From: Diplocarpon mali
Taxonomy: Eukaryota > Ascomycota > Leotiomycetes > Helotiales > Drepanopezizaceae
Direction: 5' to 3'
Length of the DNA: 15,700 nt
Assembly: GCA_024741835.1 (NCBI GenBank)
Contig: JAENRP010000537.1
Coordinates: forward strand, 4,355-20,054
A program made the position numbers and the translations under genes. How positions within the stretch are numbered: position 1 is the stretch's first letter; each line of letters opens with the position of its first letter. This document shows positions 1 through 15,700 of the stretch, in pieces. The notes under the pieces were generated by a model. That model was not told the DNA's origin. It worked only from the letters and a program-made list of their open reading frames with translations, and did not search any database.

Positions 1-114
1 TTTTATACGCTTTTCACCTATAGGCCGGGCCTAGGAGTTAGAAAACGAAACTAGCAAAATAAACAAATAGGCTATAGAATCGTAAAAACAATTAAAATAG
101 AACCAACCTAGGTA
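1..114. other. Sequence downstream of ORF B
   Basis: Non-coding in the ORF B frame. It contains palindrome copy 1 and nothing else recognisable; there is no LTR copy. Confidence 0.5.
15..41 (-). repeat. Palindrome copy 1 (non-coding)
   Basis: Core TAGGCCGGGCCTAGGAGT. It lies past the ORF B stop and out of its frame, so the repeat is not confined to coding DNA. In its own register it would read LTPRPGL*VK. Confidence 0.8.
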
Positions 115-318
115 TCAGTTTTCCTTAGTTCTCTTTAAAGGATAGGGAGAACTATCGCTAGACAACAGTCTCTTTATAAAACGACCACTTCTTCTTATAG
201 CATTACTATTAGTATCCGATAAGATAGGTCTCGGTATTGCAAAGGCCTTAGTAGTTCAGGTAGATGCTAGTATACTTTAGTAGCTTCTATTAATAGGGAA
301 AGAGACTTATATAGTAGC

Positions 319-341
319 ATTATTATTATTATTATTATTAT
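319..341 (+). repeat. ATT/TTA trinucleotide microsatellite
   Basis: About seven to eight tandem trinucleotide units. On the minus strand it reads as an Asn run (after two Asp residues) near residue 1065 of ORF B, and keeps the frame. Confidence 0.85.
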
Positions 342-430
342 CATCCTTAAGAGAATTGTCAGTAATAGAAAAAGGGGAGGCAGGAGATTCTATAGATACT
401 ACTTCCTTAGCCTTGCCTTTTGCTAGATCA

Positions 431-456
431 AGTTATAGGCCAGGCCTAGGAGTTAT
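431..456 (-). repeat. Palindrome copy 2, in ORF B
   Basis: Reads ITPRPGL*LD in the ORF B frame, residue about 1027. Counterpart of copy 6 in ORF A. Confidence 0.85.
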
Positions 457-1250
457 ATCAGGTGTCTTTATATAGGGTTTCTTAGCGCTATACTTCTTAA
501 ATAGAATCGTCTTATTAATTATATTATTAGCTTTAATATTATCATCTGTGTTTTTAGTCTTTATTTAAGACTTATCGCTATATAACTATAGCTTTAGTTA
601 TTAAACCAGCTTCTAAGTATTAGTAAAATCTTTAAAAAGTTCTTATTTGTACTTCTTTAAATATATTATCAGCTAAGATATATCTTTTGCAAATAAATCC
701 TTTATAGTTATTACTACTAATAGATCATTCTATAGTCGTCTTCCTATAAGAGCATCTGATAATAGGCTACCTTTTATTATATAGAGCGTTGCTTGAAATT
801 TGGCAGATGATTCTCCTATAATACTCTATCTGGCCATTCTAGGTCGCTTTATATTAATAGCATTAATTAAGAAATCATTTAAGTCCATTCCGTTCTCGAG
901 AGCTTCGTTCCTAACAACTTTAGTATAATTATTACTAATTGTCAAGAACCCTCCCTTACTTAATTCCCGATTTAACTTAAGGTTAACAAATGTTCCTTAT
1001 CTTATAAATATAGAAAAAGGCGTAGTTTTATTAGAGATATACTTATTTAAGAGAGTCTTTTCTTTAGTATTTAATTCTTTCTATTATACCGCCTTTTATA
1101 CTAGGTTTAAGGAAATCCACTGCGCGTTTCTAAGACAGTAGGGTATAAGAGCAAATGACTTATAAGACTTTTGCTATATAGCAAATTGCCTTGTCAATCG
1201 TTTGACAGCTAGAATTATATAGTAGTTAAGGGTTCTATTATTAGGTATAG

Positions 1251-1277
1251 TGACCTGCGAGCCTAACCTAGGAGTCA
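1251..1277 (-). repeat. Palindrome copy 3, in ORF B
   Basis: Reads RLTPRLGSQVTIP in frame, residue about 753, just after the AYLK block. Counterpart of copy 7 in ORF A. Confidence 0.8.
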
Positions 1278-2481
1278 ATCTGATGAATCTTATATTAGCG
1301 TCAATCTTGGTTAATACTACTATTATATAGTAGTCAATTCCTATAAACTGTGCTAGTTTAAGGTAGGCTACTATCTTATATGAAGAATTATAGCAAGTTA
1401 ATAGTACTCTTAAATACAATCTATAATGCATTCGCAAAGTCTATTATATCAGATTATATATTATATTATAGAAAAAGGCAAAAGGGGGCGATGATTTCTT
1501 ATCTAAGGGGCGAAAATGATATTTGTATATTATTACCTCTTCCTATGCTAAAGTTATAAACGAACTCTTCCTACGAATACCGTAGCCTTATATGCGTACT
1601 ACGCCTAAGAATGCGCAACTAAATAGTTTAGGCATATTTAAAAAACCTTTACTATAAAGTGATATAAAATCGTCTAAGGTTAGTATGGACTTATACTAAG
1701 CGAGGGTTTAGGAGATATTATAGAATAATTTTAAAGCCTTAGGTGCTACCTTGAATTTCGCAAAACCTAATAATATATCTTTCTTAATCTGGTTGGCTAT
1801 TCTGCTACCGCCGGCTATAATTATATAATTTCCAAGATGCAATAAGAATAAAGTCAGGTTAGGTGTAGTATAGAATTTGTATATATTAAAGGAGACTTAT
1901 TTATTAGTTAAAGATAATGTTGCCAATCTATAGTATTATATATATTGTCATTTATAGAGAGTATAAAATTTTTCGAGACTGGAGTCTTCGAATATTCCTA
2001 TTATAAATCTGCTTAGTTATGTCTTTATTTCTAGCGTTACTATAATCTTGAATCTATTGCTATGCTATAGTATTATCTTAATGTTAAAGGGGACTCTATA
2101 GCATTCTGTGGAAATAATTGTTATGCTATTCTCTGTCTTTTCTTTAAGAATATAGTAATTACCTTTCAACTTCTTATAGTTGATAAAAAACTGCATGATA
2201 TTGTCCGCCGAAAACTTGTCTTATCGTAGCTTTATGATCTATTTAATAGCTCTTGCTATTGCTTCTTATGCTAATAAAACTTCTCCCTGGTTTTCCTTCT
2301 TCAAACGCTTTATTATAGACTTATAGAATTTTAGAATAAACTTTTATAAGTCCTTAGGGAAAGATTGCATAATATCCGCGATATCCTTTTTAGTGTTATT
2401 AAAAATTTCCAAGATATTAGTAATAGTGCTCCCTTCTTTATTTGACAAATCTTCTTCTAAGTCTATGATATTATATACGCT

Positions 2482-2507
2482 AACCTATAGGCTAGGCCTG
2501 CGATTCA
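2482..2507 (-). repeat. Palindrome copy 4, in ORF B only
   Basis: Reads KLNRRPSL*VSV in frame, residue about 346. ORF A has no copy at the matching place, so this one may be a later gain in ORF B or a loss from ORF A. Confidence 0.8.
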
Positions 2508-2668
2508 ATTTATTTGCTACTAGTATTTAAGGTATTTTAGGCATTTCTAAGGATAGTAATTCAAACTTATTTAAGTCTAATGATTTAAGGTTATAATAGT
2601 TAGCAATTTGTATTTCTAATATCATAGGTACCTTATATTTAAGGACTTCTTTATCACGTGCTAATTCT

Positions 2669-2694
2669 ACTTGTAGGCCAGGCCTATAAGTCAA
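2669..2694 (-). repeat. Palindrome copy 5, in ORF B
   Basis: Reads NLTYRPGLQVELA in frame, residue about 280, with no stop. Counterpart of copy 8 in ORF A. Confidence 0.85.
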
Positions 2695-3534
2695 ATTTTC
2701 TTCATTAGTTAGTTCTACTAAGGGTAGTAGCATTTTCTAAGCAGTAGAAACTATAAATTCCTATCTTTCTATTTTATTATTAAAATAGTTTATAATATAC
2801 TTAGTAAGATAGATCATCTTTTCTTTTATAATAAGTAGACTATATTATGACTATTATAAGCCGAGGGTGTTTAAAATTGTCTAATTAGGAAGGGCTAGAT
2901 TATTATATTACGCTGGATCGTCTTTTATAGTCTGAATAATAGAGTGTATAATAGTGCTTGAGAATCTAATAAATTTTCTACCTCTTATATTATTGCCTTA
3001 GAGTTTCTTTATACCTTCTTAAATAGTAAAATGATTCAATACCTATATGGCCTTTGCTACTAGTTAGTATATTTTAAAAATCTTATCTAGTCTTTGCAAG
3101 GCGTTATTGGCGGTAATATCAGTTATAAAGTGGGTTTGGAAAAGGGTACTATAAATGCTACTTATAAACTATAGCAATCTTTTCATACCTTTATTCTTTT
3201 TATCTTAGTTTCTTTAAAATAAATCCACTAATATAAAATAACCTTAATACTCTTATAAAAACTTTTCACAATTAATTCCTTTGACCTTAAGCTCTCCCTT
3301 AAGAAAATCATCAAAGCCTAAGAACCCCTTCTTAATAGTAGAAATTCTGTAGTTTAATACTTTAATAGAGGAATTTAAGAATACTTATTATTCTATTTTA
3401 CCTAACGTTTTATAGGTAGTCATAACGTCTTTTAATGATCTTAATGACTTGCCATCCTATAAAAACCCTCCTTCTAATATTAGTTCATTATTAGTAGTGC
3501 TTAAGGACTTGCTACCTAAGGTAACAACCGACAT

Positions 3535-4147
3535 ATTCTTCTTAAGTATGGCCTTTTTACTTATAGTTAATAGTGCTATAATGAATTATTTAGTAAGGGG
3601 GGGGTAGTTTTAAATAAAAAGATAATTGTTTAAGAAAGATTAACAATATAAGAGGCTTATACTAAAAAAGATTAATAATAGAAAGACAATAGTAGTAGTA
3701 CTACTAGTGCTAGTGCTAGGGTTTAGTAGGGTTATAGAAAAGGTAAAAAAAAAGTATGATTATAGTATAAGGAGAGATTTATTTATAGAGATAAGAACTA
3801 CGCTAGTGTATAAAGGAAAAGTAGGCATAAAGAGGCTAGAAGTAGAAACAAAAGTAAAGTATAACGTATATAAGGACCTATAATTGATAAATGATAATTA
3901 TTAAAGGTAAGGATGACATTTCAAAGGTAAGCGTTAGAAAGTTGCATACAAAGGGAATAATTAAAGAATGAATTATATAAAGAGTAAAGTAAATAAAGAA
4001 TATATATAAAATGGAATAATAAGTTAAGAATAAAAAGGTATAGGTATATAGAAAGTAGATAATCTTAAAAAAATTCAATATTTAATTTGCAATCTTTTCA
4101 AATGGTTTTCAAAGGGGGTAGATTATAATTCTTTAAATTAAGTTAAT
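3535..4147. other. Non-coding spacer between ORF A and ORF B
   Basis: 613 bp without a credible gene. The plus strand is purine-rich, has a G8 run at 3597-3604, a short inverted repeat TAGTAGTAGTACTACTA at 3690-3706 and two similar AAGATTAA-type words near 3645 and 3670. The part from about 3870 to 4140 keeps more CA and TG than the flanking ORFs, so it is less RIP-affected. A 66-codon hydrophobic minus-strand run at 4078-3878 is treated as chance. Presumably it holds the ORF A 3' region and the ORF B promoter. Confidence 0.55.
3597..3604 (+). other. G8 tract upstream of ORF B
   Basis: TTAGTAAGGGGGGGGTAG on the plus strand stands out from AT-rich surroundings, about 62 bases before the ORF B ATG. 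A run like this followed by TA resembles the polypurine tract before a fungal gypsy 3' LTR, but it lies on the strand opposite to all coding here and no LTR follows it. Confidence 0.3.
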
Positions 4148-4324
4148 TCAATTGTCAGTTCTATTATTACTTCAGAGTCTTCTTCTTTTATATTAGTTCT
4201 TATTTCTTAGCGATTTCTTAGCTTTAGGGACCTCTTTTAAAGGATCTTCTATTAATACCCCTAGATTTAGTGACTGAGGTTTATCCGAACTATCTTATGG
4301 GCTTAAGCTAGCTAAGTCTATCCT

Positions 4325-4351
4325 TACTCGTAGGCTAGGCTCGTAGGTCAG
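4325..4351 (-). repeat. Palindrome copy 6, in ORF A
   Basis: Reads RLTYEPSLRVRID in frame, residue about 1038, close to the basic C-terminus. Confidence 0.85.
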
Positions 4352-5207
4352 TCTTGGCGTTTCTAAGCTTAAGGGTAAAAATAGGGGATTGGTTTCCAAA
4401 TCAGGGTCTAATACTATACTAGCGTCTTAATTCGTCCCTTTTCCGAATCTTCTTATAATAATACCTTTATCAATTAGTATATTAGGCTCTTAAATAGCAT
4501 TTACTTTATCGCATTATCTTTAAGACTTAAATCTATAAAGAAGCGACTTAGTATTTATAATATTCGTCTAAGCCTTAATAAGGGCATTGAATAGCTTCTG
4601 ATTATATTCTATAAAGTGGATTTTCAATTTGTCTTTATTAAAAAGAAATAACTCTTATACTTTAATTATAACTGATAGATCTGTTTAAAAGCATCGACTA
4701 ATAATGGCTTTAAAGAGGCTGCTGCAGTTTTTAAGATGAAAAGCTGCTTTAAAAGGTGCAGTGGTTCTACTTATATTAATCTATTAAGGTATTAGAGGTT
4801 GCTTTAAAGCAAAGATTGAAAAGATAAGATCAGAGATTTGAGTTTTATTTTCTAAGGTATTCTTATCGCAAATAGCTATATAATTATTGCAAAAGGCTAT
4901 AAAACCACTAGTCTTATAAGAATTGTCTAAAAGCATTTTAAGAAGGTATTTCTATTTTATTATTACTATAATTAGATTGCTATTATTAGTAATAGGTCGC
5001 AAGATCTCCTTTTACTTTAATTTTGCAATTATTTAAGCTAATTAAGATTTTAAATTAAGTGCTTAAGAAGTCTATCGACTTATCTTCTTTGCAAATAGAG
5101 TAAGTTTTATATTCGACTAAAAGCCGACCTACTTATTAAGGCTTTTAAAAGCTAGCCCTTATCCGATTGGTAGGATCTAATAATCTAAGACTTACTTTCT
5201 AATAAAA

Positions 5208-5235
5208 TTGACTCGCGGGCCAGGACCGCAAGTAA
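5208..5235 (-). repeat. Palindrome copy 7, in ORF A; best preserved arms
   Basis: ACTCGCGGGCC, then an A, then GGACCGCAAGT. It is nearly free of RIP changes on one arm and GC-rich in an AT-rich setting. Reads IFTCGPGPRVNFI in frame, residue about 743. Confidence 0.9.
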
Positions 5236-6594
5236 AAATCGGAATTTCTTTATTAGTAGTACTTGTATCTCTCTTTATTAAAACGACTTAATTATAAAGA
5301 CTAAGGCTAATTAATTAAGGAGGTTTAAGGTAGGCTATAAGCTAATAGGTTCCTTTACTTCTTACTATTATAGCTAAGAGGTAGAGTCTATAGTATATTT
5401 AAAGGACTTATTAAATAAGATTGAATATTATATTATAAAGAAAATAAGAAGGTATAAAGGTTGCGCTATCTATAAGGTAAAAGTGATAAAGATATATCTC
5501 TACTTCTTATTTTATAATAGAGAGGAATATACTTATAAAAGTACTATTATTAGTAGTAAAATTGTTAGTTAGGAAGCGGTATCCGAAGGGTTTAGGCATT
5601 ACAATTGACCCTTCTTCCTCTATTTCCTCTTACTATTTATTACTTAATAATATCGATAAGAAGGAATTGTTCTATTCAATCGGCTCTAACGTTTTTAAAG
5701 CTTTAAGATTAGCCCTGAATTTTATAGCACTTAGAGATGCTTTTATTATTAATAGGTTGGATTTGCATATCTTTAAAAAGATAAAGAATTGATTATTAAA
5801 GTAGATTAGAAAAAGATCGATATCTTCTATTATATAAAGAAGTTCGAGGTATTTAATAGTTTCGTTAATATCAAATCCTTTATAATTAAGATTATAGTAA
5901 ATTAAAAGAGAGCAAATATAAAGGTCGTATAGTCTTCTCTCTTCGATTCCTACGCTAAGAAGATACTATTAAAAGCGAGTTTTTATTACAAAGGATACCT
6001 AAATATTATATTATTCTTTAAGCTTAAGGTTGAGAATGATTAATTAAGGCATATTGCTATAATTATAAATATCTTAATTAATAGATTCCTTTTTGCATTC
6101 TCTTTCTTATAAGATAAAATAGTCTTACTTAGTATCTAAGAGACTAGGTTTTTAACTTTTATAATTATTAAAGAATTAAATAATATCTGTAGGGGTAAAC
6201 TCGTTTAGGATAAGCTATTAAATCTATCTAATAGCTCTTTTAATTATCTTTAAAGTAATAGGAATAGGGTCTTCCCTTATCTTATTGTTTCTAAAACAGT
6301 TATATATAGATATAAAGAAGTTAAGAACTAGCTCCTTTAAGTTATTAAAGAAGGAGTTTAAGCGAGCGCGCAATCCTTTAGTTTTAAATTATAAATTAGC
6401 TAAGGTAGCTATCGAATAATCTATCCTTCTTAAAGGTTGAGCTAAAATAGGTCGTTTAATTAAAGGAAAGTCCCTTAAAGATTCTAAAAACTTTAAAAAG
6501 ACTACGCTAAGCGTTTAAGTAGTTTATTTAGCAGCGGTTTCTAGAATCATTTTAATAAAAGGCAGGTTAGGTCTAGTTTTAAAATTCTTGTTTC

Positions 6595-6622
6595 TGACTC
6601 TTAGTCTAGGACCGTGAGTCAA
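6595..6622 (-). repeat. Palindrome copy 8, in ORF A
   Basis: Reads DLTHGPRLRVRN in frame, residue about 281, the same place as copy 5 in ORF B. Confidence 0.85.
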
Positions 6623-7465
6623 ATCATATAGATTAGCACTTATTATATCTTTAAGCTAAGAAGCGAATTTTAAGGCAGGCTTAACTATAAATAACCAATT
6701 CCCTTCTTTATTATTAAAGAAATCTTATTTAAATTTTATTATAAGAGTCTAGTTCTTTCTTAAAATAAGCAAACTATAAGCAAAAGCGCAAAGCCTTAGC
6801 ATATTAATAATAGTACTATTAAGTAAGGTAATATCTATAGCCTAATTTGATCTTTTTATAGCCTTATTAGCTACTATAAGTATTACATTAGATAGACTTA
6901 TAAATCTATAACCGCGAATTCGATTGCCTTAGAATTTTGCTACTCTTTCTTAAATAATAAAGAAATTGAGAATCTAAATAGCTCTAGCAGTAAGAGTATT
7001 TTCTTTAAGAATTTTTAATAATACTTATCTTCTATTATTAGAATCAATATTTATTAAAAAGCGCGAACAAAATAGGAGTCCTTTCTTATTAATAGCTAAA
7101 TTATCCAATTATTAAATAGATTCTTTTCTTTTATCTTAATCCATTTTAAAAGTATTAGCCAAGGTTATATATTAATTTGCGTTAGCTAAGAATTCCTCTT
7201 TAGAGATTCCCTTTAGTCTTAATTCTTTAGTTAAGAAGTCGTTAAATTAGAGAATTCCAAGGGCTACTTAAGTTAAAAGGTTATTAATAGCATTCGCATA
7301 AGTTAAAAGGAGTTTTTATTGCTCTATATCTCCTAAGGCTATATAAGTCGATTTGAAGCTCTCTAATAATATAATAGCTCTACTATCTTAAGAGAAGTTT
7401 ATAACTAGTGCTTATTCATCCCCTATTATAGTAAATAAAACCATTTGTAAGTTCTTTAAAGGCAT

Positions 7466-7684
7466 ATTACTTGTAAAAGATAAGGAGTATAAATAAGAGA
7501 TTTCAATAGGGTATAAGAATTAAAAGGGCATATAAGCTATAATAGGTTTACTATATATATATTAAGGAAATTGGACTTTTATTTATTATTCAAAGAAAGT
7601 AATAGGAATGCTATAATTAAAGGCTAATATCAAGAATGCAAAATAAGTTAGAGTAAGCAAGAATTTAAGATAATCCTAAAAGAT
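7466..7684 (-). other. Spacer between pol and ORF A
   Basis: The spacer is 219 bp, or up to about 400 bp if pol ends early near 7870. No LTR-like segment or second copy of the 15051-15270 sequence is visible. The minus strand carries GGTCGCCTCCTTT at 7713-7701, a GC-richer patch that could be the tail of pol. No clear polypurine tract precedes ORF A. Confidence 0.5.
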
Positions 7685-9292
7685 CTATATCTTAAATAAT
7701 AAAGGAGGCGACCTTGCTAAAAATGTAAAAATAAGGATTAAAGGAAGGTAGGATAATTAATAGGTTAGGAAATCGTTTAGTATTCCCGCTTGCGTTCTTT
7801 AGATATTTTAGGAATAATAACTTAAGGTTGCGATTAGTTAGGTATTTTAATATTCTTTACTTATAGAACCGACTTATAGGTTAAGTTGAAAAAAATCTTA
7901 GTCTTCGTTTAAGGGTTTAAAATTGCTTATATTACCATCGGTTCTTATAAAAGATTCAAAAGTTATATTAATTTCTAATTCGTCTTCTAAAGGGAATAAG
8001 GTCTAGTTGCATCGATAAAAGCGCTTTAATCAGTTAGCTGCAAATATTCCTTTAATATCGACTCTATTAAGTTCCTAAAGAGAATAGTATTCCTTTTCTT
8101 TCTACTTAGATTTAACTTTAAATAGACTAAGCTATTAATAGTTAAATTTAATATCTACTAATATATTAATACTTCTTATAATATTATAAACTAAGACGAG
8201 ATTATCTTTTTAAATAGGGTGCATTTTAAGTACTTTAGAAGTAGCTTATACTTCCTTAGCTTTTTCTTAATATCGTTTCTTTTATAAAATGATTTCCTTT
8301 ATATTTATATCTTAGAGCTTAAGTTATCGGCATCTTATTATAAGTAAATCGGAATAGTTTTAAATTTGACTATAGTCGAACAATCTTTAAATAAGCTATT
8401 AAGATTTAAGAGGAAGCTATACCTCTCTACTATAGATAAGGAAAAATAGTATAACTCCAATCGGTTTATAAATTATCATTTGATAAGTAAAGAGTATTTT
8501 ATAAAAGTATTTTATCTAATTCTTAAATCCTCTATAGGTAACTTTAGATAGCCTATTAAGAATATCGTAATATCCTTACTTTACTACTCTATTAGTTTTC
8601 GAGTTATATACTAAGATTTAAACCTACTTAATATTATATTTTTACAAAAAAGCTTTAACTACTCCTTTATTTTTAAGGCCTTTATTAATAGTTAGTCTAT
8701 TAAAAAGTCTATAGCAATAGACCACATCTTCCTAAAGGAACTTTGCAATAGATTCAAAGTTAGCAGATCTTAAAGGTCGTCCTTTAAGCCATTCTAATAA
8801 GTCTTCCTTTATTAAAATAAAATATATAATCCCATTTTCGATTATTAATACTTATATAATATTAAGACTGACTTTATAAAAAAGGCCTAATAGCCAGGTT
8901 AGGAATAGGGGATTCTCTTTATAACTAGGTTTTCGTTTCTAATAGGGGATGCAACTTTTTATAAAGGCTTTGCAATCTTTAAAAGAACCCTTTTAAAAGA
9001 ATTTCCTTAAGAGTTAATAGTAGGTAGACTTAGCTCCTTAATAGCCAATTTCCTTATAAATATCTTAGATAGCCTTAGCCTTTAGTTTTTCATTATTTAA
9101 GCAAAGTTGTATAAGGAATAAGTTATTGCTCCTTTTAAATAATCGTCTTCCTTATATTAGATAAATTAAAGCTTTAGCTTTAAATTTCTAAAAATCCTTA
9201 GGAGCAACCGTCTTTAGTTATTTAAGTATAATTAAAAACTTTGCGATTTCTTCAAAGTCACTTAAGTAGTTAGGTAATAAAATTCTCTTATT

Positions 9293-9320
9293 TAACTCGC
9301 GGGCTAGGCTCGCGAGTTGA
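9293..9320 (-). repeat. Palindrome copy 9, in pol, second register
   Basis: ACTCGCGGGCTAGGCTCGCG then AGT: nearly perfect arms. In the pol frame it reads TQLASLARELN, not the LT...RV form. It sits between RNase H and the integrase zinc finger. Confidence 0.9.
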
Positions 9321-11260
9321 GTCCCTTTAAAGCGATATATTAATAGATAACCAACTTCGTTTTCTATCCACTTATTAATATCTATTTCGTCTTCTTTAAT
9401 TAAATCAAAAGGGTAGGGCCGAGTTCTTTTTAAAAGGCTATTAGTAGTAGTATTTTTTATTTTTAAAATATATTTGACTTTAAAGTCTATTAGTCTTATT
9501 TAAGTAATCTATTTTATTAGTAAGGCTTTTAGTAGGTCGCTTATAGCTCTATTTAGTTATTCTATTAGTACTTTAGTATCAATTTCAAAGATAAAGTAAG
9601 TACTATAAAGGTCGCTTCTTATCTTTTTCATCGCCTTTAAAGCGCTTTTATATTCCTATTTAATAGCATTATACTTTATCTTTATTAGATTCTAAAGACC
9701 ACTTTTAAAGTAAGCTAGATATCTTTTCTACTAGCTATTAGCTTATTAAAGGATAGCACCCTATTTAATTAAGCTTGCATCAACTATTAGTATAATTGGC
9801 CTAGCGTTAGCTCTATAGTCTATTTTAATCAGATATAGCGCCTTAAGTAATACTTACTTTAGTTGTTTTATAGCCTCTATTTAGGGTTCCTTTTATTAAA
9901 ACTCAGCCCCTTTTTAAAATAAGGAGTAAATAGGTACTGCCTTTTTAGCGAAATCCTTGATTTAAATGCGATAGTATACTATAATGCTAATAAATGCGCG
10001 AGCTTTTGCCATATTATTATACCTTTTCTATTTGTCGATTTTAAGTACTTTAGCCCTTTAAGGACTTCGGCTATTGGAATTAGTAATAAAACTAATAATT
10101 TCTATTGATAAAAGATAGTATTATAACTTCGGACCGACTATTGCTTCTACCCTTTTAAATTATATAAGCACTTAGTCTAGGTTTTAAATGTATTCTATTA
10201 TAAATCGCTATATACTAAGGAGAACTTCTTTATAGTTATAGAATGATCTTAATCCTTTTACTCTTATATCATTTATATAAAGGAGTATAATATTAGGTAT
10301 ATAATCTACTAGTATCTTATAGATTACTTAAACAAATTAAGCGATCGAATTTATAGCCTCTTAAGGTAATCTTATTATTTAAAGTAGCTTAAAAGGGGTT
10401 TGAATTACTATTATATCTCTCGATTTAATATTAAGAATAAATTGGTTATATTTAAAGAAGAAGTTAATAAAAGAGCTATAGGTTAATCCTGCGAATTTAT
10501 TTAAGAACTCATCTATATTTAAAAGAATATTAGTATCTCTAATAGTTACTTAGTTCATCTCTACTACTACTATTATTAGTTTATAAGTTCCCTTCTCCTT
10601 CTTAGTAACTAGGAACCATTTATTCCTATAAGGGCTATTATAGAACTTAAGAATACCTTGCTTTAGCCTATCCTTTAACATTTCGATTACCTTTTCTTAA
10701 AGAGCTTTAAAGACCTCAAATGTTTTCTCTTATTAGGCTTTATAAAGTATTATCTTAATCTTAATATAAGGTATAACCTCTTTTTAAATCTGGCTAAGTT
10801 CTATTTAATCAAAAGCTAAGGCGTCCTTTCGATTTATTAAGGTTTTATAAAGTAGTTCGCGTTCTTACTTTATTAAGTCTTCTTTAATTTTTAGCATATC
10901 GAAATATTCTTTTATTAGTCGATATTTGATAGGTTTATTAGAAAATCTGCCTATAATAAACTTATCGAATTTGCCACCCGGCTTTAAAGGTCGAAGCTTC
11001 TTATCTTATTCAAATTAATCATCCAGTCCTTTAGGCTTTAAGCTATTAGAGATTCCCTAATCTATTAGTTATACTTTATCGGCCTTACTTTTATATATAG
11101 TTCGAATATTAGCTAATACTATACTTCTTTACTTCTTTCCTTTTTTATTAAATCCTATAAAACGGTCCGAATTTTCCTTTTTAAAAATAAATAAAAGATT
11201 TTCTAAGTCGTTAATTTAAAGTGCGTAGATAGAAATATTATTAGTAATTTTATTATTTTT

Positions 11261-11286
11261 CACTTGCGGGTCCAGCTTATAAGTGG
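11261..11286 (-). repeat. Palindrome copy 10, in pol
   Basis: Reads TTYKLDPQVKNN in the pol frame, in the linker between protease and RT. Only about 160 bases from copy 11. Confidence 0.75.
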
Positions 11287-11420
11287 TTTTTAGGTTTTTT
11301 AAAATAATTAGTGAATTGTCGAAATTTGTAAAATAAACTCTCTTCTTTACCTTATTTTTCTTTTTTCTTAATTATTAAGTTAATAAAACGCTAATTGTAC
11401 TATTTTTTAAAATTCCAGAT

Positions 11421-11450
11421 TTGACTCTTAATCTAAGATTGCAAGTTAAA
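11421..11450 (-). repeat. Palindrome copy 11, in pol; heavily decayed
   Basis: Reads DLTCNLRLRVKSG in the pol frame, same linker as copy 10. Most of the central G/C positions are now A/T, but the outer arms ACTC/AGT remain alignable. Confidence 0.7.
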
Positions 11451-13338
11451 TCACTATTATTTAAAATTGACAAACTTACCTTTCTTTTATTATAACTCCT
11501 TACTAGGTGCCTTCCTTTATTAGTATTAAGCTTAGCCCTTATATTAGCTAATCGTTTCTTAAAACCTTATTTTAGAATTCGGCTATATCTCTTATGATAA
11601 CCATTTATCCTTCTAAGGATCGATCTATATTTTAAAGACTAGCTTTTATAAGCCTATCTTTAGGATAGTTAAATATTAGCTAAGATTCTAAAATAAAGGG
11701 CATTCTTAAAAGAATATCATTCGAAGAATTCTCTATTATTAGAAAGTCAATATAATTAACAATTCCTTTGACTTTAACCTTTACGTTTTTCACCTATCTA
11801 TTAAAATTGTATCTCGATCTAAAGATAGTCGAATAAATAAGGAGTCGATTATTAACAATTATCAATTGAGCTATTTCTACCACTTTTCTAATTATTATAT
11901 TAACTTTTAAACTATAATCGATTAAAGCCTTTGCTTTAACTGATTCTTCTATAGAATAAATAATAATAGGGCTTTTTATTATAACTATTAAATAATTTCA
12001 ATTAATATTCTAAGATATTAAAGCTATTGCTATAATATTATAGTACCTTTAAGTTCCTTTATCTTTTGCAATCTAAAGATATTTGATTAAAGCTAAGTGC
12101 TTTTTAAAGTTCTTTTATATTACAATTTCCATTTCCTTATTATTATTCAAATCTTTAAAGGCAATCGGGATATACTTTCCTAATACTTTATTAAAGTGTT
12201 TAATTAAACTAAATAGGTCTTTAAATGTAAGGTTAATTTGCTAAGCTATAATATTCTCTATAGCTTTCTTTATTATAGTTAAATTAGTATATTTATTAAT
12301 AAATTTTTCCTATTTTAATATCTATCTCTTTCGCTTAAGGTTAAGGGTTTGCGTAATAACTTTAACTTCTTAATCTTTAAGCTTAAAGCTATCTTTATCT
12401 ATTATATCTTTAATTAATTTGTCTATTATATTAGCTTTATCCTTATCTACTGCGGTTTTAGACTATTAGGTGTCTTTTAGCGTTTAGACCTTATATTAAG
12501 ATTCTTAAGTTCTACGTATTGATTTCTAGACTTTAGCTAGTTTTATTAGTATTAAAGGAATAGTAGATTTAAAAGAACGCTAAGTATTCTAAGGGTTTCT
12601 AGATATAAAAGCAGTATTAATATTAGCAGATATATTATTATTAACCCACTTTAAAATAGAGATACCTCTGACTTTAATAGCAGTTTAGTTCGAAGTTTGA
12701 TTAATAAGCATTCCTTTAAGTAGATTGCTAGCTAGACTTATATATATATAAGTTAGGACCTTAGAGTTGATTTCGATAATGCGCTTCTATTCGGCCAAAT
12801 CCTTATCCTACTTAATGCTATATATTATTATTTGAACAATCTATAGCTATAAACGATTCTGGTGTTTTTTAATAGGGATAGCATCTAGCCTAGGATCTTT
12901 AATATAAAGTATCCTATACTTATTAATATATATAACCCTAGTATTAATAAAATAAAGGAAAAGAGGGTAATTGTTATAGTATTTATATAAAGCGTAGTTA
13001 GGTTCTTTATTATTGCAAAAGTTATAGGTTAGCCATCTTCTATTACTATTTCCTTAATACCCTATAGCATTAATATTAGTAGAGTGCTAATTAGGATCAA
13101 TTCCTCCTTCTTTAGCTAGCTATTGCGTTCTTATATTAGCTGGTTATTCCAAATGATAAGAAGCAGAAGTCTAGTAATAGGAACTACTAAGTTAGCTTAT
13201 AATAGTCGAGTTTTATCTATTGCTAAACTAAGGAATATGCTGTTTTTCTTATAAAAGATTATTAATTCTAGTTTCTAAGCTTTAGATTTGGAGTTTTGCA
13301 AATTAGGTCTTAAGTTTCTTAATTCTAAGGTTGGATCT

Positions 13339-13366
13339 TACTCTTAAGTCGGGCCTGCGAGTAAAA
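13339..13366 (-). repeat. Palindrome copy 12, in gag
   Basis: Reads PFTRRPDLRVRSN in the gag frame, between two coiled-coil-like stretches. Confidence 0.85.
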
Positions 13367-14347
13367 GGTATAACTACTAGGTTCTTCTTTACCTCTTTTA
13401 TAACTTCTAAAGCTTTCGAGTGTTCTTAGACCAGGCTCTTAAGGTCTTTATTATAAAAGGGAGTAAGGGCTTTTTCCTACTCTATAGCATTAATAGTTCT
13501 CTTACTAAGATCTGATTTTAAAGCAAAGGCTAAGAATTCCTTAAATAAGGCAAAGGTTATAAGATCTTACTTATTAATCTTAAAATACTTAATAATCTTA
13601 TTTCAAAGGCTAGTAGGTAATTTAAGTAAGAAAAGGCAGCCTCTTTCAACTTTGCTAAGTATTTTTTAACTAATTAAAGTATTTAATATATAAGTAAAAG
13701 TCTGATAGTAGTTCTTAAATTCCTTAAGAGTATAAGTGACTAAAATAAATTCCTTTAAGAAAGCCAGGGTATTGCGAATCTGCTATCTATTGAATTCGCA
13801 GAATTCAGATTTAAAGGCCTTAATAAGGAGTTCTTATAAACTATAAGTTTTCCATTTAAAGAAGGACTTAATAATATCCTTACTTATATAATTATAATAG
13901 CAAGGAAGTTGAGAAATTATATCCTTTTATATAATATTAAAATTATAATAAGTTTCCTTATATTACTTAAGGAAATTAGTAATATTAGCGCTTATAAAGT
14001 AAGGAGCACTAAAAGAACTAAGGAAGGGAAAGTGACTAATAATAGCCTTAAATACAGCCATTATCGTTTTATATTAACCGTCTAGGTTAATAGAATCTAT
14101 AAAAGGCAAAGGGGAAGCTTTAATATTATAAGATTAATTGCTAAAAGGAGTACTTCGAAATTCAAAAGGGCTTAAAGAACATTTAAAATCCGAGTTAATC
14201 TTAAAGTGATTAGGACAAGTTTAAAAAGATTTAAATAAAGGGTTAATAAAAAGTTTAAAATTGTTATTATTTTTAATATTTTCTAATATTAATATTAAAA
14301 AAGTAAGTAGTAGTCTTAAGTTATTTAAAGACGTCTTTTTATCCTCT

Positions 14348-14373
14348 TACTTATAAGCTAGGCCTAGGAGTAG
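14348..14373 (-). repeat. Palindrome copy 13, in N-terminal gag, second register
   Basis: Core TATAAGCTAGGCCTAGGAGT. The gag frame reads ILLLGLAYK, the same alternative register as copy 9. If gag really begins at the surviving ATG 14061, this copy is in the leader. Confidence 0.8.
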
Positions 14374-14757
14374 AATTCCGAATTCTATTAAAAGTTTAAT
14401 CTAAGTTTACTAAAAGATTTTAAATAGATATTAAATAGCTAATAAAAGCGTTACAACTAATTGCAATAAGATAAGGTTTACTTAATTAAGGACCAATTTC
14501 TAAAATAAGGTTTATATTTAAGATTCTTCTTAGCCTTTAGGCTAATTCCTATTAATCTTTAAAGTAAAAGGGTCTTTAAAGACGATTCTAAGGCAGTTTT
14601 TAAAGTTCTATTAAGCTAAAGCGGCTAAATTATCAGATTCGGATTTCTAAAGATTCTAAGAAGGCACTTCTAATTAGAGTTTACACTTAATATTACTTAA
14701 GTATTCGAAACTACTGCTATTTAAGATTGCTATTATAGGGTTTGCTAAACTTTTTAT

Positions 14758-15032
14758 ATTAAGAAGCCGAAAATTCCGAAAATCTTAGAGTTAAGGAAGA
14801 AAATAGGAGTTTTCAAAGCAGAGCCGAAAAGGGAAAATCTAAGGTTGTTAATAGTTACTAAACGAAAATCGACAGTTCCAAATAACTAGGCGATTAAGGA
14901 TAAGGTTTTTAAAGTTAATTAAAATGCTATAAGTGTTTTAAAGACGTATTTTTTTTTCAAAAGGCCAGTCTCTTATCTACAAACTAAAAGATCGATAAGG
15001 TTATATAAGGACGGAAATCTTAAGAAATCGGT
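14758..15032 (-). other. Gypsy leader between primer site and gag
   Basis: About 275 bp with no convincing reading frame. It includes a nine-base T run on the plus strand (14949-14957) beside CAAAAGGCC, and has more CA and TG than the coding regions. Interpreted as the untranslated leader; no other signal was seen. Confidence 0.35.
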
Positions 15033-15050
15033 CCCTATATAGGTCACTAA
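15033..15050 (-). other. Possible primer-binding site
   Basis: Directly after the proposed LTR end the minus strand reads TTAGTGACCTATATAGGG. If G-to-A change is allowed for, the start becomes TTGGTGACC, the shape of a tRNA-complementary site beginning TGG. I cannot name the tRNA. The call depends on the LTR end being placed correctly. Confidence 0.25.
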
Positions 15051-15270
15051 TATAAAACTAAAGAGAGATAATACAAGAATAGGCCTAAGGAAAGACCTAA
15101 AAACAAAGAGGAGGAAGCACTATAAGCGGGCTCTCTTAGATAAGATATTAAGAATAAGTCCTAAGTATAAGGTATATTTAGTACTATAGCGACACGCGCT
15201 ATCTTTATATATAGAAGATGGCCCTTTTATCCTCCTATTGTCCTACGCTAATCATATGATATATGTCACA
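15051..15270 (-). repeat. Probable 5' LTR of the gypsy element
   Basis: On the minus strand this begins TGTGACATATATC and ends AGTTTTATA, which RIP would give from a TACA end; TG...CA ends are usual for LTRs. It is about 220 bp, contains a TATA box about 56 bases from its start, and is directly preceded by the collapsing copia frame. It is also less RIP-damaged than its surroundings. No second copy is visible in the window, so direct-repeat proof is missing. The ends are inferred from motifs and could be off by tens of bases. Confidence 0.45.
15203..15214 (-). promoter_or_regulatory. TATA box of the proposed LTR promoter
   Basis: The minus strand reads CTATATATAAAG, followed by a GC-containing stretch (GCGCGTGTCGC). 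This is a good TATA box in the expected part of an LTR and points toward gag. In such AT-rich DNA a TATA match alone is weak; its support is the position inside the proposed LTR. Confidence 0.4.
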
Positions 15271-15700
15271 AGACCTATCCCTCTCAGGTCTCCATAGTAA
15301 AAAGTGCACTTTCTTTAAAGGAATCTACTTATAAGTCTAGCTTAAGAGTCAATTTCTATAATATTACTTTTAAGATAATATAAAGTCTATCTTTAATTTT
15401 AACTTTAAAAATCACTTTATAATTATTATTTATAAACTATATAAATTAATTATTAAAAACTCTTATATAATTTAATTTTATATAGATCTTATAGTTAGAT
15501 AAAAGATTAATGCTTAAGCTAGGTATAAGGAGAACATTTTGTAAAAAGAAAGAAATACTAGCGATATTCATCTTTATTATACCTATTAAGTCTATATATA
15601 ACCTTTTACTACTAACTTTAATAGAGCGCCTTTTTATTTTAATAAGTAGGTCTTTAAATAAGTAGGGTTTATTAATTATATATATTATATAATTAGTATT
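15271..15700 (-). pseudogene. Ty1/copia protease fragment, truncated at both ends
   Basis: The frame enters from the right edge with NTNYIIYII, readable as a RIP-altered copia protease active site of the form D-T-G-C-x-x-H. After the expected spacing comes FFLQNVLLIPSLSINLLS, which closely matches the copia block LQNVLYVPSL-NLLS. FKVKIKDRLYIIL follows, like the region before the GAG-pre-integrase domain. An in-frame palindrome lies at 15353-15326. The frame then reads ESALFTMET and dissolves at about 15285-15271, exactly where the proposed gypsy LTR begins. No copia integrase or RT appears elsewhere in the window. Inference: the gypsy element inserted into this copia copy, with the rest of copia beyond the left edge, or deleted. 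The copia call rests mainly on the LQNVLLIPSL block. Confidence 0.7.
15326..15353 (-). repeat. Palindrome copy 14, in copia fragment
   Basis: Reads KLTLKLDL*VDS in the copia frame, shortly after the protease domain. It places the repeat in a retroelement unrelated to the gypsy element and to ORFs A and B. Confidence 0.75.

Follow-up and report, generated by a model that had tools for sequence, protein, structure and literature searches.

The stretch of Diplocarpon mali DNA analysed here (15,700 nucleotides; assembly GCA_024741835.1, contig JAENRP010000537.1, positions 4,355 to 20,054 of the forward strand; hereafter the window) carries 14 copies of a short imperfect palindrome. This palindrome is real and very abundant in the retroelements of the genome, and it is of a known kind, the dispersed in-frame palindrome. 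We think it somewhat more probable than its opposite that the copies form one family of short GC-rich palindromic inserts, which spread as a passenger at the nucleic-acid level among unrelated long terminal repeat (LTR) retroelements.

Palindromes in the window were located by scoring 29-mers against the consensus TTGACTCGCGGGCCWGGCCCGCGAGTCAA, with C/T and G/A changes half-counted and a threshold of 19.5. Fourteen imperfect palindromes reached the threshold, compared to a mean of 0.3 in 20 Markov shuffles (maximum score no higher than 20.0), in agreement with the number claimed in an earlier reading of the window made from its letters alone (the sequence-only reading). The cores span positions 16 to 15349. 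A weaker palindrome-like site at 7856-7884 scored 19.0, which is inside the shuffle range. The consensus was derived from the same 14 copies, and the independent test is therefore the count in the whole genome. The core, ACTC[CG]CGG[GT]CC N GG[CA]CCG[CG]GAGT, is GC-rich and 23 bp long, and matching flanks often extend it up to ~35 bp. Predicted hairpin energies were -16.7 to -19.2 kcal/mol in five of the six copies folded and -9.7 kcal/mol in the sixth. The window as a whole has a G+C content of ~27% and a strong signature of repeat-induced point mutation (RIP), with CA at 0.43 and TG at 0.37 of expectation.

We searched the window's own genome, 49,369,952 bases in 676 contigs, for the palindrome. 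The 23-base core was found at 505 places with at most three mismatches, compared to none for a reversed control. A profile search tolerant of C/T and G/A changes, as the sequence-only reading had proposed, bore out the abundance of the element: the RIP-tolerant pattern matched 2390 copies, compared to one in the control and ~1 predicted from base composition. A pattern of equal information with transversions in place of transitions gave 58 matches; positions 5, 9, 15 and 19 were free in both patterns. The differences among the copies outside these four positions are therefore nearly all of RIP type and, since divergence of this type requires repeated DNA, the copies sit in repeats. Strict copies numbered 88 genome-wide (25 + 63). 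On two contigs (C1 and C7), 33 of the 35 copies among the matches listed were within 5 kb of another. Copies occur on many contigs, up to 463 kb in length, and inside LTR retroelements, so that a mitochondrial location does not apply. The strict pattern gave five matches in a prokaryote genome collection (~4 expected for 257 Gb) and one in viral contigs (an IMG/VR contig, L082, 157-179). Runs of N, which may be assembly gaps, were seen inside or beside some of the copies (L036, L048, L066, L073).

The surroundings were read for 79 loci (L001-L079), which correspond to 60 distinct central places and 19 second copies of a place. All 60 places lie in repeat families, mostly LTR retroelements, and no ordinary host gene with a copy was found among them. 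Grouping the loci by both flanks gave seven multi-member clusters, namely the family of open reading frame (ORF) A of the window joined with a copia 3' end, the gypsy pol of the window, the gag of a second gypsy element, the pol N-terminus of that second element, a copia linker between integrase and reverse transcriptase (RT), a copia protease side and the L026 group. For the L026 group, the frames tried gave no match to Pfam, and we class it as a repeat solely because its flanks recur. Two singletons, L044 and L047, both lie near copia RVT_2; the copia hosts are present elsewhere in the genome, outside the window. A gypsy frame of this genome is 94% identical to the Diplocarpon coronariae proteins P0001 and P0002, and a copia frame is 84% identical to D. 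coronariae P0005, which suggests that the species is D. coronariae or one close to it. The copies in these three proteins are outside the Pfam domains that pass the cut-off. They stand ahead of Pol_BBD, in the stretch separating integrase SH3 from RT, at the gag N-terminus, on the upstream side of RT and in the interval from RNase H to integrase.

In its dominant phase the core encodes the peptide TPGPGPRV, and in the reversed orientation TRGPGPGV. Both orientations occur in the single protein P0005, as TREPGPGV and TPGPGPRV. The ACT of the core was in codon phase 0 at 13 of the 14 independent coding sites over all carriers (13 of 15 when the copy at window position 14349 is counted), by a hand tally in which some frames depend on read-through; assuming equal phases and independent sites, the probability of 13 in 14 is ~6e-6. 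Direct reading showed all three phases of the unmutated core to be stop-free, so the bias is not forced. Other copies are non-coding. In the copia family L003/L028/L059 the palindrome lies ~75 bases past the stop that ends a pol-like C-terminus (compare P0005), and it adjoins repeated AAGGGGTGATTTT, which in our own labelling resembles a polypurine tract together with the start of an LTR. Such copies cannot be accounted for by a role in the protein. At this copia 3' end (L028, L059, L003 ~1400-1560) the polypurine-tract-like AAGGGGTGATTTT stands in tandem, with the palindrome among its copies.

Homologous proteins lacking the motif were found for both superfamilies. P0005 has five copies at two sites, and the motif, searched as a strict expression, was absent from all 17 copia relatives from Rhynchosporium, Podosphaera, Blumeria and metagenomes, some of which are fragments. 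Twelve copia relatives were aligned; all 12 extend over the linker and 10 over the protease-side site, and the motif was missing at both sites. In Rhynchosporium P0006 the protease side is clearly the shorter, and the protease-side site is the only copia site that looks plainly empty; at the integrase-RT linker the relatives carry unrelated sequence of their own, often long. Among the gypsy proteins, P0001 and P0002 together have copies at three sites, P0003 at one and P0004 at none. The metagenomic P0003, for which no relatives were found in viral contigs, has one TREPGARV (read as peptide only) at the place where P0002 has two copies, and is without the pair upstream of RT. P0004 is without copies at both places. 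P0002 also lacks the pair upstream of RT, a part that its gene model skips, perhaps as a predicted intron.

At the DNA level, we compared genome loci through 844 distinct flank joins. In 757 of them the second site was filled to the same size (gap 26-32), in 68 it was larger and in 19 smaller, and the six joins below 20 bases all belong to one copia linker tandem array. The sites are therefore mostly fixed within families, with only the unit number varying: each family was amplified after the insertion, while array length still varies. One copia linker had 2-4 units, in steps of 45-54 bp, and a gypsy linker had 2-3, each unit consisting of the 8-residue peptide and ~5-10 spacer residues. Another array, in a copia frame of locus L081 (1643-2317), has ten palindrome-derived units, mostly 13 or 16 residues apart, and a protein search with it gave no match at E 0.01 among 940 candidates. 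This array precedes a stretch that we labelled pre-integrase-like.

The arms of the palindrome are not fully symmetric. In the 2390 copies, the pair 5-19 was G-C in 421, C-G in 31 and mismatched in 1938 (81%; C.C on one strand), compared to 1163 mismatches expected from independent arms, counts that serve as description because the copies share ancestry. The element is therefore polar. Only one of the 88 strict copies is a perfect palindrome, compared to ~17 expected; we do not read this as avoidance of perfect palindromes, because the copies share descent and the deficit may be no more than the legacy of a polar ancestor. A compensatory G-C/T-A coupling at pair 9-15, hinted at by the 88 strict copies, was withdrawn since the genome-wide count disagreed. 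We defined RIP-proof classes by purine or pyrimidine at 5-19 together with G/T and C/A at 9-15. The class RR|TA recurs in the copia linker, the second Ty3/gypsy gag, the Ty3/gypsy element of the window, ORF A and the L026 group; such recurrence is the trace that copying between carriers would be expected to leave.

Within the window, 12 of the 14 cores lie inside read-through frames, and ACT is in codon phase 0 in 10 of the 12, the cores at 9295 and 14349 being in phase 2. The sequence-only reading had placed 13 in frames and 11 in one register; its picture held with these slightly lower counts, and a shorter frame (14162-14632) puts the core at 14349 in phase 0. Its list of hosts fared less evenly. 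A RIP-broken Ty3/gypsy pol (8030-11716, minus strand) matches Pfam RT_RNaseH_2, RT_RNaseH and Integrase_H2C2, and these RNase H and Integrase_H2C2 matches are the only ones in the window above the curated cut-offs. The two gag-region frames (11998-13602 and 13603-15348, spanning 11998-15348, minus strand) had no Pfam match above cut-off and are called gag by position. A copia protease region in the window was rejected, as it had no Pfam support and no copia domain was found in the window. ORFs A and B, listed as unknown in that reading, are not unrelated to each other: ORF A (4172-8029, minus strand; 1285 residues when stops are read through, without a match in Pfam) aligns with ORF B (1948-4074) at 31% identity and with ORF C (256-1947) at 28%, the latter two (256-4074, minus strand) being jointly homologous to it. 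ORF A and ORF B+C are thus paralogous large frames (256-8029, minus strand) without a Pfam match, downstream of the gypsy pol, and are possibly an extra gene of the gypsy element or a separate repeat.

Two palindromes occupy matching aligned places in ORF A and ORF B/C, with a third falling close to a shared position at the C-terminal end. The core at 1253-1275 of ORF C (phase 0, LTPRLGSQV) corresponds to that at 5211-5233 of ORF A (phase 0, FTCGPGPRV; a site common to 16 distinct sequences including the window), and the core at 2669-2691 of ORF B (phase 0, LTYRPGLQV) to that at 6597-6619 of ORF A (phase 0, LTHGPRLRV). ORF B has one further palindrome, at 2483-2505 (phase 0), whose aligned place in ORF A is without one. 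ORF C also holds the core at 431-453 (minus strand, phase 0, ITPRPGLqL), and the C-terminal part of ORF A that at 4326-4348 (phase 0; a site common to 17 distinct sequences including the window). In the gypsy pol, the core at 9295-9317 lies in the interval between RNase H and the integrase zinc-binding domain, in phase 2 (LASLARE) with the frame intact, and those at 11262-11284 and 11424-11446 are in the N-terminal part of the frame, both in phase 0. The gag region has the core at 13340-13362 (phase 0, FTRRPDLRV), that at 14349-14371 (phase 2 in frame 13603-15348 or phase 0 in frame 14162-14632, and maybe upstream of the gag start) and that at 15327-15349, which is at the edge of the frame, possibly in 5' non-coding sequence, and below the threshold for genome flank joins. 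The first core, at 16-38, is outside the listed ORFs.

We propose that, in a Diplocarpon-like fungus, the palindrome was passed as nucleic acid among several LTR retroelements unrelated to one another, and we infer that it moves independently. Later it would have multiplied as its carriers transposed and as units of 39-54 bp were duplicated in tandem, and coding copies would survive where they are harmless, in linkers between folded Gag-Pol domains, mostly in the TPGPGPRV or TRGPGPGV phase. Spread of nucleic acid combined with the tolerance of linkers would account for copies in two orientations, in a range of carriers and in non-coding DNA, and for relatives that lack the motif. That the copies seem confined to retroelements points to reverse transcription as the route. 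Transfer would most likely occur during this step, with the hairpin making the enzyme switch template between retroelement RNAs; hairpins of ~-17 kcal/mol could pause RT and so favour template switching. Such a route would explain why retroelements are the carriers and why host genes are seemingly free. The full version of this idea, a selfish palindrome hosted only by mobile elements, which passes between copia, Ty3/gypsy and ORF A group elements when its hairpin drives template switching in reverse transcription and which survives because the in-frame linker peptide that it adds is harmless, is one that we put forward tentatively, as possible but doubtful. Selection on the peptide may act on top of the spread, in keeping with the phase bias and with the motif retained in ORFs A and B.

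Several observations weigh against spread as a passenger. No clean DNA-level empty site, differing by an exact multiple of 3 bp, was found among the 844 joins. An exact insertion length was likewise not found, and neither was a target duplication, which together with terminal inverted repeats and a parent transposase would mark a MITE; the genome gave no DNA-level empty site in which a duplication would show. No mover gene was found, although a parent transposase was not searched for. The places read cover 60 of the 88 strict copies and a minority of the RIP-mutated copies. The site in the copia integrase-RT linker could be a replacement rather than an insertion. Pair 9-15 was without covariation (937/228/1225 observed compared to 1005/296/1090 expected, with a slight excess of mismatches), its class differs within one site (four TA and three TC in the copia linker), and the shared classes may partly reflect repeated change or conversion. 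The sites common to ORF A and ORF B/C at ~30% identity suggest age or constraint; either the insertion would predate the split, with the motif better kept than its surroundings, or tolerant places would have been reused. The phase bias could reflect selection at the peptide level. The lack of a clean empty site at the copia linker and the variation of the 9-15 class within sites lowered our confidence slightly. Of the selfish in-frame palindrome proposed in the sequence-only reading, the dispersal, the in-frame position in unrelated retroelement proteins and the two orientations stand. Its comparison of filled and empty homologues yielded proteins without the motif (17 of 17 copia relatives and one of two gypsy relatives) but no exact multiple-of-3 pair in DNA.

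The same data can be read in other ways. If the peptide and not the DNA is what is kept, with TPGPGPRV-like linkers serving as spacer, cleavage site or binding site and the palindrome arising as a by-product of the codons, then one codon phase at 13 of 14 coding sites, the peptide retained at two aligned places of ORF A and ORF B/C, and the location of copies in linkers would all be expected. However, both orientations occur (TPGPGPRV, and TRGPGPGV or TREPGPGV), a phase-2 copy sits inside the readable pol frame, a frequent family is non-coding and the copia relatives manage without the motif, and we consider this explanation unlikely. The palindrome could instead be a cis-acting RNA or DNA site of retroelements, captured by recombination and kept by selection. 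Candidate roles for such a site include a dimer or packaging hairpin and the CGG-N7-CCG binding site of a zinc-cluster regulator. The predicted hairpins are stable, and the mismatch at pair 5-19 in 81% of the copies is what a specific site might have. A hairpin with a conserved mismatch has also been described close to the LTR in GalEa copia elements of fungi (PMC5445492). On the other hand, the positions differ between elements, one array has ten copies, pair 9-15 lacks covariation, a search of Rfam gave no match in the seven sources searched and copia relatives lack the motif, all of which makes a cis-acting site quite improbable. An ordinary minisatellite, a linker repeat that arose once, expanded by slippage and reached other elements by rare recombination, would fit the variation of 2-4 units in 45-54 bp steps and the ten units of L081. 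Many sites nevertheless hold a single copy of the same core, in either orientation and between flanks that are unrelated, and slippage would not be enough to bring it to at least four carriers, so that we regard this origin as very improbable.

Until now, dispersed in-frame palindromes have been known in bacteria and mobile hairpins in mitochondria. If the palindrome is a parasite of retroelements, its more than two thousand RIP-marked copies could be used to study how a sequence of ~25 bases spreads without genes. It would also show sequence exchange between copia and gypsy, which are separate superfamilies. The palindrome further shows how a passenger made of nucleic acid can supply proteins with linker peptides.

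The sequence-only reading knew of no fungal equivalent, and our searches concur: no printed description of such a palindrome in fungal retroelements was found in the literature searched, which included few subscription papers, or in the available part of PMC7864672, nor did that literature yield a printed case of a dispersed in-frame palindrome or mobile hairpin from a nuclear genome, or of one confined to retroelements. Assemblies of D. coronariae contain ~25-32% LTR elements according to PMC11527701, the main text of which has neither 'palindrom' nor 'RIP'. Yeast mitochondrial GC clusters and hairpin elements of mitochondrial DNA are short GC-rich hairpins in AT-rich DNA and are thought to be mobile (PMC4478555, PMC2800124). 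The present palindrome resembles GC clusters in size, composition and dispersal as hairpins in AT-rich DNA, whereas those are mitochondrial; an AG target site has been described for the cluster GC42, and none was found here. The PARCEL repeats are dyad-symmetric coding repeats in tandem arrays, linked in some taxa with mobile elements (PMC2996958), but their unit is a 25-residue amphipathic one and both peptide and length differ here. The GalEa Conserved Hairpin Site is similar in being a palindrome-bearing hairpin of copia elements with a conserved mismatch (PMC5445492). It lies beside the 5' LTR, mostly as CTGATCAGT or CTAATTAGT, and not in coding linkers or in gypsy, so that sequence and positions differ. 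Nematomorph mitochondrial palindromes are also inverted repeats within coding sequence (PMC6649704), but these are perfect, up to 284 bp long and in conserved parts of mitochondrial proteins. A further comparison is with the palindromic elements of Rickettsia and Wolbachia, repeated palindromes inserted in the reading frame of unrelated proteins, where the chain is exposed to solvent (PMC3767692, PMC10969869). The analogy with the Rickettsia elements drawn in the sequence-only reading holds for a genome-repeated palindrome inserted in frame in unrelated proteins, and stops short of ordinary host genes, in which none of the 60 places read had a copy. Whereas the Rickettsia elements are 100-150 bp long, bacterial and found in ordinary genes, the present palindrome is 23-35 bp, nuclear and fungal, and at the places read it is carried by retroelements and associated repeats.

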